The notes under the pieces are model-generated. The model ran no database searches. It was not told the origin of the DNA and saw nothing but the letters and a program-made list of their open reading frames with translations. A stretch of DNA of 64,000 bases from Flavobacteriales bacterium (GTDB lineage: Bacteria > Bacteroidota > Bacteroidia > Flavobacteriales_E > Vicingaceae), in NCBI GenBank assembly GCA_013359255.1, contig JABWCF010000005.1, forward strand, positions 1 to 64,000. Direction: 5' to 3'. A program made the translations under genes and the position numbers. Numbering within the stretch: position 1 is the first letter of the stretch; every line of letters starts with the position of its first letter. Below, piece after piece: positions 33,198 through 38,201 of the stretch.

Positions 33198-33935
33198 ATG
33201 GTATTCATATTGATAGGGTTGAATTATATGAATACTGTGCATTCTGTTTCCAAAAAGCAAGATAAAGCTTCAGTTCGCTTATTTTTCTTTACTTCGGTAT
33301 TACCGGTTTTATTGCTCCTAATTCCTATGTTTTTATTAAAATTTATAGAAAGTTATTATCATCTTTCTTTTTCAGATTATGGAATTTTTCCCAGAAAAAT
33401 AAGTGGGCTATCGGGTATTTTATTCTCACCTTTTATACATGGAAACTGGGCTCATCTTATAAATAATGCAATTCCCTTATTTATTATGGGTATTGCCTTA
33501 TTTTATTTTTATAAGGAAATAGCATGGAAAACATTTTTTTGGATATGGATAATGCAAGGGATTTGGACTTGGCTGGCAGCCAGAGAATCTTTTCATGTTG
33601 GAGCAAGCGGAATTTTATATGGATTGTTCGGCTTTTTGCTTTTAAGTGGAATTATTAGGATGAATAAGGCCTTATTGATTATTTCCTTGCTGGTTGTTTT
33701 AGAATATGGCAGCATGGTTTGGGGAGTGTTCCCAATTAAATACGAAATAAGTTGGGAATCGCATTTATGGGGTTTGGCTGCAGGTGTGGCACTTGCTTTT
33801 GTTTTTAAAAAACAAGGAATGCAAAGAGAAATTTATAAGTGGGAAGAAGACGAAGAAGAGGTTGAAAATTCTTTAAATGAGATAAAAATTAGCTATGAAT
33901 TTATAGAGAAAGAAAAAAAAGAAGAGAATCTTTAA
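33198..33935 (+). CDS. Rhomboid family intramembrane serine protease
   Basis: A 245-aa membrane protease. The Ser of the dyad is in HVGASGILYGLFGFLLLSG, and its His partner is in the last helix, WESHLWGLAAGVALAF. The L1-loop region is FIHGNWAHLINNAIPLF, with the family HxNxxH variant. Six helices are predictable. The hydrophilic C-terminus is strongly acidic. The start may be 33198 or the in-frame ATG 33228; the latter removes ten hydrophobic residues and gives a more usual cytosolic N-terminus. The stop overlaps by 4 nt the stop of the convergent dltA-like gene. Confidence 0.9.
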   Translation: MVFILIGLNYMNTVHSVSKKQDKASVRLFFFTSVLPVLLLLIPMFLLKFIESYYHLSFSDYGIFPRKISGLSGILFSPFIHGNWAHLINNAIPLFIMGIALFYFYKEIAWKTFFWIWIMQGIWTWLAARESFHVGASGILYGLFGFLLLSGIIRMNKALLIISLLVVLEYGSMVWGVFPIKYEISWESHLWGLAAGVALAFVFKKQGMQREIYKWEEDEEEVENSLNEIKISYEFIEKEKKEENL

Positions 33936-35431
33936 TCTTTTCTAGAGGCATAAAATTCTATTAATTTATTTTTATCTATTTTATGACTGACATTGTAAGG
34001 AAACTCTTCAAGCACGATAATCTCCGATGGAACCATATAGTAGGGTAATTTTTTTTTCAAAAAATCAGTTAGCTCACTAATCGCATTGCCTACATTCTGA
34101 TTTAGTATTACGAATGAAATTATTTTTTTTACCTCTGCATTTCGTTTTAGAGGAATGGTTACGGCATCATTAATGAGGTAGTGGGTTGAAATAACGTGGT
34201 TTATTTCGTTTATTTCAATTCTAAAACCGTGTAACTTTACTTGGTCATCATTTCTGCCTAAGAAAAAAAATAAACCTTCTGTTTGATAAGATAAATCGCC
34301 TGTTTTAAAGCTTTGGTGTTTATTATGTGTAAAAAACTTTAGATTGTTTAGAGATTCATTCTTAAAGTAACCTGCCGACACATGGGGGCCGTTTATAATA
34401 AGCTCTCCCTCTTTTTTATCTGCAGAATTAAAATCTATAAATAATTCTGCATCTGGTCTACAATAGCCTATAGGTAGTGTAGTGTATTTCGCTATGATAT
34501 CATCGGTAATTTCTATAAAAGTGGTTACAATGGTGGCTTCAGTTGGTCCATATGCATTATAAATGGAGCATCCAGGAAACAATGTTTTAAGTTTTTTGCA
34601 AGTAACATTCGGAAGTTCTTCTCCCATAAATAAAAATTTTTTTAGTGATGGTATTTTGTTTTTCTCAAAAGAAACATTTCGCAGAAAAATAAAAATAAAA
34701 GAGGGGGTGGATGTCCAAACAGTACAACGGTACTTTATTAATCGGTTTATAAAATCTTCCTGATTTTTTGCTATATCGTTAGAAGTTAAAACCAAACTTC
34801 CTCCAACAGAAAAGGCGTTAATAACATCGCATAAAGAAACGTCAAACGAAAAAGGAGCTTGGTTTAGGAATACATCGTTTTGATGAAAGCCAAAGTCTGA
34901 GGTAGCCCAATTTACAAAAGAAATAATGTTGTTTCGGGTTATTTGAACACCTTTAGGTTCTCCGGTAGAACCGGAAGTAAACATAATATATTGTAAAAGT
35001 TCGTTTTTAATGTAGTAGATATAGTTTTCGAATTTGGGTAAGGTATTTTCTTTAACTATTAATTCGCTATTAATAGATATTGGAATGGAGAATGGTAATG
35101 GGAGTTGTGTGCAATTAATGGCAACTTGGGTACCCGTTTGTTCTATTATTTTTTCAATTCTTTGCGGTGGGTATATAACGTCTATCGGAACATAAGTGAT
35201 TCCTGAAGAGAAACAAGCAAGAATAGAAACGGGAAAAAAATGTTCTTTATGTCCATAAATAAGAATAGGGTGCCCTTTAGGAATACCTATTTTATTAAAT
35301 AATTCGGATAATTGTTCTACTTTGTTTTTTAATTCATCCCAGTTTAAATCTACATCGCTGGCAGAAATTGCCAATTTATGGGGTTGATTTTCTAACTCGG
35401 TAAATTCATTGCGAAAAAAGTTAAAATTCAT
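33932..35431 (-). CDS. dltA: DltA-like aminoacyl-carrier-protein ligase
   Basis: A 499-aa adenylation enzyme matching the size and motifs of D-alanine:carrier-protein ligase. The P-loop FTSGSTGEPK is at 151-160. Asp197 (FSFDVS) would bind the substrate amino group. Further motifs are YGPTEAT, KTGDL, the hinge GRNDDQVKLHGFRIE and a C-terminal catalytic Lys in NVSHKIDKNKL. It should load an amino acid on the DltC-like carrier encoded in the same operon. In Bacillus DltA the FLFCGE motif carries a Cys (about residue 269) that packs against D-alanine. Here the motif is FLFMGEELP, with Met269, so the amino-acid choice may differ. It is the last gene of the operon, 10 nt after dltB. Confidence 0.88.
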   Translation of the reverse strand: MNFNFFRNEFTELENQPHKLAISASDVDLNWDELKNKVEQLSELFNKIGIPKGHPILIYGHKEHFFPVSILACFSSGITYVPIDVIYPPQRIEKIIEQTGTQVAINCTQLPLPFSIPISINSELIVKENTLPKFENYIYYIKNELLQYIMFTSGSTGEPKGVQITRNNIISFVNWATSDFGFHQNDVFLNQAPFSFDVSLCDVINAFSVGGSLVLTSNDIAKNQEDFINRLIKYRCTVWTSTPSFIFIFLRNVSFEKNKIPSLKKFLFMGEELPNVTCKKLKTLFPGCSIYNAYGPTEATIVTTFIEITDDIIAKYTTLPIGYCRPDAELFIDFNSADKKEGELIINGPHVSAGYFKNESLNNLKFFTHNKHQSFKTGDLSYQTEGLFFFLGRNDDQVKLHGFRIEINEINHVISTHYLINDAVTIPLKRNAEVKKIISFVILNQNVGNAISELTDFLKKKLPYYMVPSEIIVLEEFPYNVSHKIDKNKLIEFYASRKD

Positions 35432-35441
35432 TTATTTATTT

Positions 35442-36605
35442 TTAAAACAAGGTACAATAACCACTAAAAATATAGAGAGAAAATGCGGCCAAATGAAACA
35501 TTATAAATATGCTTAAATATTTTACAATAGAAGAGTTCATATTTCCAAAAACAATATCGCGATTGTATTTTTTGCAATAATAAATGTACGTATTATATAC
35601 TGCCGAGTAAATAGCAAAAAGAACACCGCTAAGTATAAAGTTTAATGAAAATCCATTCCAACACCCCATGAGGGTAAAAGTTAAAAAAAGAGATACATTT
35701 TGGCGAAAGAGAGGCATTTTTTTTAATTTTTTCTTTCTGGTAAAAAATAAATATAGGGGTGAAAAAAAATTATCTTTTAGCCAAGTTCCAAGACTTATAT
35801 GAAAACGATTCCAAAAGTCTTGTGGGTTTTGAGCTAAATAGGGTTTATTGAAGTTTAATGGTAAATGAATGCCCATCATTTTCCCTACTCCCAACGCCAT
35901 AAAAGAGTATCCTGCAAAATCAAAGAAAAGATAAAAATAGTATGCATATATTGTATTTAAAGTGCTTAGAGAATAGAGGGAATCGGTTTCAGAATCATTT
36001 AGCCAATATCTGCTAACTAGTTCGGCAAGAATAAACTTAAATGCAATTCCTTTAACTAAATAATTCCACGCGGAAATAAAATTTTCGGGAATTAAATTTC
36101 TAAATCCAAGGTCTTCTGATTTTTTAAAATTACTGTAACGGTCTATTGGCCCTATGAGTAAGGAGGGGGTAAATGCTAAAAAATTAAAATACGAAAACAG
36201 GTTAGGCATATTTTCGTTGTTCGCCTTTTCCATGTAAAGTCCCACCGTTTTAAAAGAAGCATAAGATAAACCCGCAAATGAAATAATATCATTTAAACGA
36301 AAAGGGTAATAGTGTACCCGTATATCGGATTTTACAAGAACGAGTGGTAAAAGCAAAAGTAATATGCCCCACAACTTAATATTAAACCTAAAAACCGATA
36401 AATTTAAAAAGGTAACAACGTATGAAAAAAGTATAAGTAGAAGAAAGTGTGTGGGCTTAGGAAACACAAGCACCAAAAAAAGAGCATTTAGAAAAAAGAG
36501 TACTTGTTTATAGAACTTATTTGGAACAAAAAATTTAGAAACATGTAGCAGCAATATAAAGATGCCCATTAAAATAAAAAACTCGTATGTAGTAAAAGGA
36601 AGCAC
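35442..36605 (-). CDS. dltB: DltB-like MBOAT acyltransferase
   Basis: A 387-aa multi-pass membrane acyltransferase. Over the whole length it follows DltB: GPIDRYSNF, FFDFAGYSFMALGVG, NFNKPYLAQNPQDFWNRFHISL, and the C-terminal FHLAAFSLYIFSG. His371 in that last motif corresponds to the catalytic His (336 in the solved DltB). The second conserved position, WHG in most DltB, is Asn317 here (MGCWNG), as in many eukaryotic MBOATs that use Asn/His pairs. It should move an aminoacyl group from the carrier across the membrane to the DltX-like peptide. It starts 3 nt after the dltX stop. The full-length C-terminus indicates an intact gene. Confidence 0.9.
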   Translation of the reverse strand: MLPFTTYEFFILMGIFILLLHVSKFFVPNKFYKQVLFFLNALFLVLVFPKPTHFLLLILFSYVVTFLNLSVFRFNIKLWGILLLLLPLVLVKSDIRVHYYPFRLNDIISFAGLSYASFKTVGLYMEKANNENMPNLFSYFNFLAFTPSLLIGPIDRYSNFKKSEDLGFRNLIPENFISAWNYLVKGIAFKFILAELVSRYWLNDSETDSLYSLSTLNTIYAYYFYLFFDFAGYSFMALGVGKMMGIHLPLNFNKPYLAQNPQDFWNRFHISLGTWLKDNFFSPLYLFFTRKKKLKKMPLFRQNVSLFLTFTLMGCWNGFSLNFILSGVLFAIYSAVYNTYIYYCKKYNRDIVFGNMNSSIVKYLSIFIMFHLAAFSLYIFSGYCTLF

Positions 36606-36608
36606 GGC

Positions 36609-36758
36609 TTAAAATTGCTGATAAATAAATTGTACCGATGATTTAGTTTGGTTATCAGGGTGTATGTTTAATGGATTGTACAACCAATACAAGAGAAACG
36701 CAATTGTTGTATATAACAAGAGGTTTAAAACGAAACGAATCAAAATATTATTTTTCAT
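36609..36758 (-). CDS. dltX: DltX-like microprotein
   Basis: A 49-codon gene not usually called because of its size. ATG 36758 lies inside the 3' end of dltD (11-nt overlap), and the stop is 3 nt before dltB. The protein has a basic N-terminus (MKNNILIRF), one membrane helix (about residues 9-27, ending YWLYN), a short extracytoplasmic stretch and the C-terminal end FIYQQF. Gram-positive DltX has the same plan, with the C-terminal signature FIYN(E/D)F. Its Tyr has been proposed as the acyl relay between DltB and DltD. Tyr46 and both flanking Phe are kept here. Position between dltD and dltB, coupling, size, topology and C-terminus all agree. Confidence 0.85.
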   Translation of the reverse strand: MKNNILIRFVLNLLLYTTIAFLLYWLYNPLNIHPDNQTKSSVQFIYQQF

Positions 36759-37968
36759 AAAATAGTTTATAATAGCTTGCAATTTCCTTGTTTACTGTTA
36801 GCCATCCGTATGAAGAAAGGTGCATAATGTCGCTTAACATTGCTTTATCGTATAACTCGGGACGGCTTACATATAAGTTTAAACAAGGCATGGCTTCTCC
36901 CGTTTCAGGCTTTGTAATTTCCTTTACCACTTGTTGTATAATGGGTTCTAATTCTTCTGTATTTTTATAGTACAGAGGGTTGATGGGTTGAATGATAAAG
37001 TATGCATTTATGTTTTGTTCTCGCACATACTTTACAAGCATTTCAAAGTCTTGCCATTCGGTATTAAATTTTCTGTTAACCGCACTAACACGGCCTTTTT
37101 TGTTTTTTATGTAGGAAGTATAATATGCGTTATTGATACCCATTTTATTATTATTAGCCTTATTGTTAACCTCTTTTCTCGCATTTTCAAGGAGGGTATT
37201 CCATTCTATGTTCTGCTTACTGTTTAATGAATTATTGGAATATTTAATTTTTACAGAAGTGAATTGATTGCTGATATGGTTAAGTAAATTGTATTTTTTT
37301 GAAAGTAAGAAATTAGATATGTTGCAGAGAGGATAATAAATACCCTTGTGTAGAAAAGATTTCTGAGACTGGTGTTTAAGAAATATTGTTTTAAGTTCTA
37401 AAGAAGGATTATTAAATTCTGGAAAAAGTTGTGAAATTCTGGAACCTACGTAAGCAGAATAAATACTGTTTTGGGTAGAAATTTTGTAGAAAAAAATAGT
37501 AGAGTTGTAGTTTAAGAGAACCTCGGAAGAAGTTCCCTTACTAAAAGTAGATTCAAACCATCCCGGAGAAATAATAAATACAATATTTTTTTCTTTTAGT
37601 TTGGCTTCATTGGCCATAAGTTGGCAAAGTATTGACAGGCTTTGATTGCCCGCAGCACCATACGAAAACACATTGGTATTAAAATTTTTATTTAAAAAAA
37701 CATGCGGAACTTCCGGTTCACTAGAGGTTAATTCCGATGAGCCTATGATAAACACAGATTTTTGTTCATTATCAGGTATATTTAGAAACGAGCTTTCTAA
37801 AAGGGGGTTTGATTTAAATGTGGGAATAAAATTAGGGGGTAGAAAGAGGGTATCTTTGGGAGCAGAGGTAAAAAGTAAATGATTTAAACCTTTAGAGTGG
37901 TATAAAAACAAAGTAAAAATGAAAGATAAAATAGTAGGAATAATACATGTTAGAAGGAAATTCTTCAT
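36748..37968 (-). CDS. dltD: DltD-like extracytoplasmic acyl-ester hydrolase/transferase
   Basis: A 406-aa protein with an N-terminal membrane anchor (about 5-22) and an SGNH/GDSL-like domain outside the cytoplasm. The catalytic Ser lies in FIIGSSELTSS (Ser77/78), and the Asp-His pair in LSDIMHLSSYGW (Asp380, His383), matching DltD. YGAAGNQSLSILCQL matches the conserved glycine-rich strand after the nucleophile. In the Gram-positive pathway DltD completes transfer of D-Ala to teichoic acid; the acceptor in a didermal cell is unknown. It begins 2 nt after dltC, and its 3' end overlaps dltX. No truncation is seen. Confidence 0.87.
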   Translation of the reverse strand: MKNFLLTCIIPTILSFIFTLFLYHSKGLNHLLFTSAPKDTLFLPPNFIPTFKSNPLLESSFLNIPDNEQKSVFIIGSSELTSSEPEVPHVFLNKNFNTNVFSYGAAGNQSLSILCQLMANEAKLKEKNIVFIISPGWFESTFSKGTSSEVLLNYNSTIFFYKISTQNSIYSAYVGSRISQLFPEFNNPSLELKTIFLKHQSQKSFLHKGIYYPLCNISNFLLSKKYNLLNHISNQFTSVKIKYSNNSLNSKQNIEWNTLLENARKEVNNKANNNKMGINNAYYTSYIKNKKGRVSAVNRKFNTEWQDFEMLVKYVREQNINAYFIIQPINPLYYKNTEELEPIIQQVVKEITKPETGEAMPCLNLYVSRPELYDKAMLSDIMHLSSYGWLTVNKEIASYYKLFYEK

Positions 37969-37970
37969 TC

Positions 37971-38201
37971 TTATGGTTCAACTTTTTTTATGGTTTCAAT
38001 AATATTTTCAATGGTATCAAAGTTTTCTTCCACAATTAAGTGTTGAGGTATTTTTTTTCCAATATATTCTTCAATAGCTACAATCAACTCTACGGTTGAG
38101 ATAGAATCCAGTAGCTTAGATTTAATAATAGACTCATTGTCATCTACCTCTCTAAAGGAAAGATTCTTAATTTCATTTTTCAAAAAATCTTTTATTTCCA
38201 T
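37971..38201 (-). CDS. dltC: DltC-like acyl carrier protein
   Basis: A 76-aa carrier protein. Ser33 in LLDSISTVELIVAIEEYIG is the phosphopantetheine attachment site, and LLDS(I/M)xTVxL is the DltC form of the motif. Four helices are predictable and the acidic surface is typical. It should receive the amino acid activated by the DltA-like ligase and present it to the DltB-like membrane enzyme. It is the first gene of the operon, preceded by a promoter-like sequence. The gene order C-D-X-B-A differs from the Gram-positive X-A-B-C-D order. Confidence 0.9.
   Translation of the reverse strand: MEIKDFLKNEIKNLSFREVDDNESIIKSKLLDSISTVELIVAIEEYIGKKIPQHLIVEENFDTIENIIETIKKVEP

Follow-up and report, generated by a model that had tools for sequence, protein, structure and literature searches.

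The 64,000-nucleotide stretch of contig JABWCF010000005.1 analysed here (the window), from a Flavobacteriales bacterium, carries on its minus strand an operon in the order dltC-dltD-X-dltB-dltA (Table 1). X is a frame at 36609..36758 (-) that translates to MKNNILIRFVLNLLLYTTIAFLLYWLYNPLNIHPDNQTKSSVQFIYQQF, then a stop codon. An earlier sequence-only reading had described a hidden 49-residue dltX between dltD and dltB, with one membrane helix and the ending FIYQQF. The frame is indeed there: its 5' end shares 11 nt with dltD (36748-37968) and 3 nt separate its end from the GTG start of dltB (36605), and an alternative TTG start would lengthen the product to 57 aa. The translation does end with FIYQQF, and the predicted helix corresponds to a single hydrophobic stretch with a top 19-residue Kyte-Doolittle mean of 2.16 at residues 5-23.

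Table 1. Features of the dlt-type operon, with the evidence for each assignment
Feature	Position	Strand	Evidence
dltA: DltA-like adenylation enzyme	33932..35431	-	NF003417 8.4e-133, 443.6 bits (cut-off 476); solved DltA 3fcc 2e-98
dltB: MBOAT, GTG start	35442..36605	-	PF03062 1.6e-12, 47.8 bits vs 27; model superposition on 8jem
dltB S326 codon, aligned with Tyr345	35628..35630	-	alignment
dltB N317 codon (WNG), aligned with MBOAT catalytic His = S. thermophilus DltB His336	35655..35657	-	alignment
dltB H269 codon, aligned with His289; proposed base	35799..35801	-	alignment
dltX (X): 49-residue microprotein, one predicted membrane helix	36609..36758	-	frame, conservation, selection
FIYQQF C-terminal hexapeptide codons (putative acyl-shuttle motif); Y46 = 36621-36623	36612..36629	-	Y46/Q47/F49 invariance
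dltD: SGNH-type transferase, N-terminal helix; S78, D380, H383 kept	36748..37968	-	PF04914 7.3e-55; TIGR04092 160.5 bits (cut-off 150)
dltC: 76-residue acyl carrier protein, phosphopantetheine Ser33	37971..38201	-	PF00550 1.4e-4

Among the partners of X, DltD alone reaches its own NCBIfam cut-off, and DltA, DltB and DltC are clear relatives that stay below theirs (TIGR01734, 427.5 of 559.85; TIGR04091, 241.5 vs 375 bits; TIGR01688, 20 of 52.35). The adenylation motifs are present in DltA, the phosphopantetheine Ser of DltC is found in 82/82 rows, and the DltD triad is kept throughout, with S78 in 74/75 rows (one row has a gap) and D380 and H383 in 75/75. The DltD model (pLDDT 88.1) matches solved DltD with E about 1e-12, TM 0.54-0.61 and an rmsd of 4.9-10 A. 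The DltB model (pLDDT 90.6) superposes on solved DltB 8jem with Z 40.5 and 2.8 A over 376 residues, and its fold also matches PORCN (Z 28.6) and HHAT (Z 26.2).

Conservation and selection of X

We scanned an alignment of three DltB against a genome collection described as covering 84,980 species and kept the best 80 loci, a survey that is a sample of close relatives of the three-DltB query. The 72 loci with dltD upstream of dltB are the Gram-negative survey loci and a Klebsiella plasmid; outside them stand four loci with dltB or dltD absent from the contig (L023, L026, L027 and L030) and five Gram-positive loci. Read stop to stop, the dltD-dltB interval contains a frame ending with [FY]xYQ(Q/K)F at the stop codon in 72/72 of these loci, representing 65 distinct proteins; the survey counts include near-copies, as L010 appears to repeat the congener G005, and L005 and L077 share a single DltB. 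A scan limited by length and start missed 17/72, mostly in Achromobacter and relatives, and the start of X is unsure in loci of this type. The endings were FQYQQF (29 loci), FEYQKF (14), FVYQQF (11), YEYQQF (7), FEYQQF (7), FIYQQF (3) and FVYQKF (1), the first Phe being replaced by Tyr in 7/72. Y46, Q47 and F49 are invariant in the 66 aligned Gram-negative rows (the window and the 65 distinct proteins). The claim that the motif is retained in a distant phylum thus held and could be widened, X being conserved in both Bacteroidota and Pseudomonadota. A broken frame or a lost Tyr in homologous loci had been named as grounds for rejecting the gene; comparison of the dltD-dltB intervals found the frame intact in all 72 loci and the Tyr in every aligned row.

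Other traits of X are more variable. The overlap with dltD is 4 nt in 64/72 loci when the start nearest the dltD stop is chosen, a rule that favours 4 nt. None of the 72 proteins has a second such hydrophobic stretch, and the single helix reaches a 19-residue mean of 1.6 in 70 and falls below in two. Lys and Arg are richer before than after the helix in 46/72 only, which is weak support for a topology.

The congener of the window carries the same frame, with 48/49 residues identical (by eye) vs 89% identity for DltD, and the pair differs by 6 synonymous and 1 non-synonymous changes (pN/pS 0.04). In a chosen subset of loci, with pairs of equal length only being counted, the median pN/pS was 0.08 in Bordetella/Achromobacter, 0.16 in Enterobacterales, 0.11 in Buttiauxella and 0.34 in Bacteroidota, where pS (0.80) is near saturation. 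The 80 loci contain 15,570 stop-terminated frames of at least 30 codons, and 79 of them end with [FY]xYxxF: 71 are X, one is X on a broken contig, five are Gram-positive DltX and two others look like chance. L026 has a frame ending with FVYQQF on a contig that stops short of dltB. We considered that X might be a chance open frame overlapping the end of dltD, as its small size and poor Pfam score could suggest. This reading is vanishingly improbable and was rejected in view of the motif in 72/72 loci, the pN/pS of 0.04 and the predominance of third-position changes in the three groups where codon positions were tallied. Judged from its pattern of change, the frame at 36609-36758 is a real, selected gene.

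Relation of X to DltX and to the acyl-shuttle motif

We then asked how X relates to the DltX of Gram-positive bacteria. It aligns over its full length with the Pfam DltX model (PF12459), at E 0.032 and 14.2 bits, short of the gathering score of 25; X is not a member of PF12459 as the model is drawn. This model found 9/25 Gram-negative X at E<=1 (best 5.7e-4), and an NCBIfam search of X returned no DltX match. Compared as profiles, Gram-negative X and Gram-positive X match with E 8.7e-6 and a probability of 83%, along a segment that spans the membrane helix and not the C-terminal motif. Gram-positive DltX (PF12459; S. aureus, B. thuringiensis) resembles X in its length of about 40-60 residues, its one helix with a Tyr inside, its [FY]xYxxF ending directly ahead of the stop codon and its place as partner of DltB and DltD. 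It ends with FIYNEF, FIYNDF or YIYNDF in 7/8 loci, the eighth giving no such frame ahead of dltA, and a passage of PMC11035591 quotes the DltX ending FLYFGF. The residue after the motif Tyr is Gln in 72/72 Gram-negative X, whereas it is Asn in the Gram-positive DltX examined. Unlike Gram-positive DltX, X also scores below the Pfam cut-off and has a partner DltB with Asn at the catalytic His site.

The gene lies between dltD and dltB, whereas Gram-positive dltX lies before dltA. The sequence-only reading had called this order permuted: it does differ from the Gram-positive order, but it is not a local permutation, D-X-B being common to the 72 surveyed Gram-negative loci, with dltA next where it is on the contig and dltC before or after (C-D-X-B-A or D-X-B-A-C). 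Two Bacillota genomes have a DltX-like frame beside a dltD match (L126:2435-2707 and L128:2438-2671, ending with YIYNAF and FIYNGF, respectively), and the position of the gene therefore varies in Gram-positives too. Lactobacillus helsingborgensis has a plasmid-borne dlt copy (L006:1800-2200) in which no DltX-like ending was found among frames of at least 25 codons just upstream of dltA.

Altogether, the dltX identity of the frame is supported by its position, size, single helix, exact C-terminal motif, selection and conservation, and we consider with high confidence that X represents a new, divergent DltX. Gram-negative dlt genes have been noted before, in a paper of which one passage calls DltX highly conserved among firmicutes (PMC5541007). 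In the literature searched, mostly without subscription papers, we found no description of DltX in Gram-negative bacteria. A 2023 paper reportedly set out the DltX mechanism and may already show Gram-negative DltX.

The motif itself points to a function. According to passages of PMC12148441, the Tyr of the C-terminal FXYXXF of PatA becomes acetylated, and acetyl-FIYANF serves PatB as acetyl donor; DltX is described there as giving the same shuttle motif in trans, and other MBOAT pathways are said to be without such a microprotein. Since the motif of X is the published FXYXXF acyl-shuttle motif, X most likely works as DltX. As in the PatA/PatB and AlgI-type MBOAT-SGNH pairs, this motif would shuttle from an MBOAT to its SGNH partner. 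In those pairs it is fused to a WHG MBOAT and the donor is acyl-CoA (shown for PatA), whereas the X system would use a separate peptide and a carrier-protein donor. An MBOAT search of 12 genomes gave 30 matches, comprising 18 non-Dlt genes from nine genomes (one gene matched twice), 1 Gram-positive DltB and 10 Gram-negative Dlt-type proteins; PF03062 at 1e-5 missed DltB in G447, a genome known to have one. FxYxxF stands in cis at the C-terminus of 16/18 non-Dlt MBOATs vs 0/10 Gram-negative Dlt-type proteins, which fits X as a shuttle in trans. No natural X-DltB fusion was found among the surveyed loci.

Alternatively, X could be a real small subunit that assembles or stabilises DltB-DltD, its C-terminal aromatics being an anchor and not a covalent carrier. 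Single-helix subunits often play such a role, and a passage of PMC11035591 suggests that DltX and DltD are regulatory. We regard this as very improbable, given a Tyr invariant in 66/66 rows, a motif placed at the exact C-terminus and, in the published account of PatA, acetylation of the same motif on its Tyr. We therefore return to the shuttle: X is very probably the Gram-negative dltX product and the acyl-carrying component of a Dlt-type system made up of five genes (C-D-X-B-A). Such a role would extend the acyl-shuttle microprotein to Gram-negative bacteria and would explain how Gram-negative dlt loci can work though their DltB has no C-terminal Tyr of its own.

Asparagine at the MBOAT histidine site of DltB

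In S. thermophilus DltB, the active residues are given as His289 and His336, with Tyr345 adjacent (a passage of PMC11035591). According to passages of PMC12979248, MBOATs in general have a helix His that does not vary, and their re-entrant loop provides Asn, Asp or His; in passages of PMC12148441 the catalytic His is called universally conserved and the His315Ala change in PatA is said to abolish autoacetylation. The window DltB lacks this helix His (His336 in DltB). Position 317 is Asn in the window and in 77/77 Gram-negative Dlt-type rows (sampled among the dltB of L010-L088) vs His in 8/8 Gram-positive rows; position 269 is His in 77/77 and 8/8, respectively, and position 326 is Ser in 72/72 Gram-negative rows vs Tyr in 8/8. 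The MGxW and G around N317 do not vary in Dlt-type rows and the DltB model superposes on the solved structure (Z 40.5), so that the register is secure. For the Gram-negative clade as sampled, Asn in place of the MBOAT His is a firm fact of sequence. The non-Dlt MBOAT genes of the same or related genomes are WHG in 18/18. A search of the literature on the MBOAT catalytic histidine and DltB returned no title on a natural Asn at that site.

In a maximum-likelihood tree of DltB (midpoint-rooted, and with a long-branch warning), 72 Gram-negative rows, which differ from the 72 dltD-dltB loci, group in a single clade (100/95) next to that of the eight Gram-positive DltB (100/99), with ten other MBOATs lying apart. 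As WHG is found in both outer groups, a single His-to-Asn change on the Gram-negative stem is the simplest scenario. Loci of Bordetella, Dickeya, Pectobacterium and Photorhabdus belong to the same clade as the window DltB. Published envelope phenotypes exist for Bordetella and Dickeya; the main text of the Dickeya paper (PMC3544676) names no dltX, and reports that a dltB mutant suffered 99% mortality with polymyxin but showed no clear change of virulence in aphids. Passages of PMC9410548 and PMC4448142, one of which names the dra locus, attribute to Bordetella pertussis the addition of D-alanine to a component of its outer membrane; our sampled Bordetella loci are tied to the pertussis gene at the level of the genus. 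WNG and X occur together in 9/9 genomes of the Dickeya genus. A DltB match was found in nine of 15 Bordetella-genus genomes. Eight of these matches are of Dlt type, each with both WNG and X; the remaining one is a different MBOAT, which carries WHG. In one further observation, the dltB of the Bordetella-genus genome G998 is split over two overlapping frames (L139 and L141).

These data bear on whether Gram-negative DltB is an enzyme at all. It could have ceased to be an acyltransferase and now serve another enzyme as scaffold or channel, X being structural; the universally conserved MBOAT His is Asn in 77/77 rows, and Tyr345 is also replaced, by Ser, in 72/72. However, drift would be expected in a dead protein, yet WNG and H269 are invariant over two phyla, and the DltC Ser, the DltD triad and the X Tyr are all kept. 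Moreover, the Dickeya dltB mutant is polymyxin-sensitive and the two Bordetella papers credit the locus with D-alanine addition, the sampled Dlt-type loci of both genera having WNG. We consider a dead DltB quite unlikely. If Gram-negative DltB is active without the helix His, another residue must be the base, most simply the loop His that it has in common with Gram-positive DltB. H337, present in 70/72 rows, was considered as a general stand-in for N317 and rejected because the window DltB does not have it.

Canonical MBOATs (HHAT, PORCN, ACAT, DGAT1 and Gram-positive DltB) share the fold and a two-residue active site with the window DltB, but their helix residue is His and their loop residue Asn, Asp or His, whereas in the window DltB the loop supplies His and the helix supplies Asn. 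The Gram-negative DltB may therefore use a swapped His/Asn pair, and if so, the 'invariant' MBOAT His would be replaceable in a working enzyme. The Asn argues against a plain transfer of the published DltB mechanism. A conserved three-part mechanism (MBOAT, acyl-Tyr peptide, GDSL-like enzyme), as the sequence-only reading proposed, is plausible with a non-standard MBOAT part in which the 'invariant' His is Asn. Whether Gram-negative Dlt forms a separate MBOAT-SGNH branch, with the shuttle peptide as a separate microprotein, the loop His as base and the helix Asn, seems to us evenly balanced. This DltB clade offers a natural test of the invariant-His rule as worded in the cited passages of PMC12148441 and PMC12979248.

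Proposed acyl transfer and distribution of the locus

We propose the following cycle, in which the acyl-Tyr, the topology, the complex and the substrate are inferred. DltA would adenylate the amino acid, most likely D-alanine, and load DltC. DltB would then move the acyl group over the inner membrane to Tyr46 of X, with the re-entrant-loop His269 serving as base and Asn317 assisting, roles that ordinary MBOATs assign the other way round. The hexapeptide that ends X would lie on the periplasmic side, and this short tail would swing to DltD, whose Ser78 would receive the acyl group and hand it to an envelope polymer. To our knowledge, Bacteroidota are without teichoic acids.

The transferred amino acid could be other than D-alanine. 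Position 269 of DltA is Cys in 8/8 Gram-positive rows, Met in the window and Ile in 23/74 Gram-negative rows; we take this Cys to be important for D-Ala selection, and its replacement is a possible change in the amino-acid pocket. DltA and DltC also stay under the NCBIfam cut-offs. On the other hand, the Cys is kept in 42/74 Gram-negative rows, the best named DltA matches are D-Ala ligases and D-Ala is reported for Bordetella in the passages cited above, so that we rate another amino acid as unlikely, and retain D-alanine as the probable substrate.

The locus is rare in its phylum. Within the family, 2/46 genomes have DltD (PF04914, E<=1e-10), and both belong to the genus of the window; a sample of the phylum has it in 1/395 genomes, that of the window itself. 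In a sample of Pseudomonadota drawn by DltD and not by the DltB query, 6/398 genomes were positive (one being the centre genome), and 6/6 had X and WNG. No group of conserved non-dlt neighbours (frames of at least 100 codons, compared between the window and 18 Bacteroidota loci) is present in more than 3/19 regions; of the two groups that reach three regions, one includes the window, the congener and L014, and the other is antisense to dltD. Beyond the genus of the window, hardly any flanking sequence is common to the Bacteroidota dlt loci, so the five dlt genes seem to move as a unit. A contig labelled Chryseobacterium (L042:4552-8602) has a dlt locus that nests with Enterobacterales and an X near-identical to that of the Pseudomonadota locus L123; it may reflect either contamination or recent transfer.

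A megablast of E. coli genomes with the plasmid dlt cassette gave no match. The D-X-B-A-C sets of Klebsiella electrica (L005:536-8325) and Enterobacter cloacae (L151:67-7775) are 100.0% identical over 4,053 bases and flanked by insertion-sequence transposases, the Enterobacter cloacae plasmid being typed as conjugative. In both annotated plasmid records of the clade examined, X is annotated as 'hypothetical protein'.
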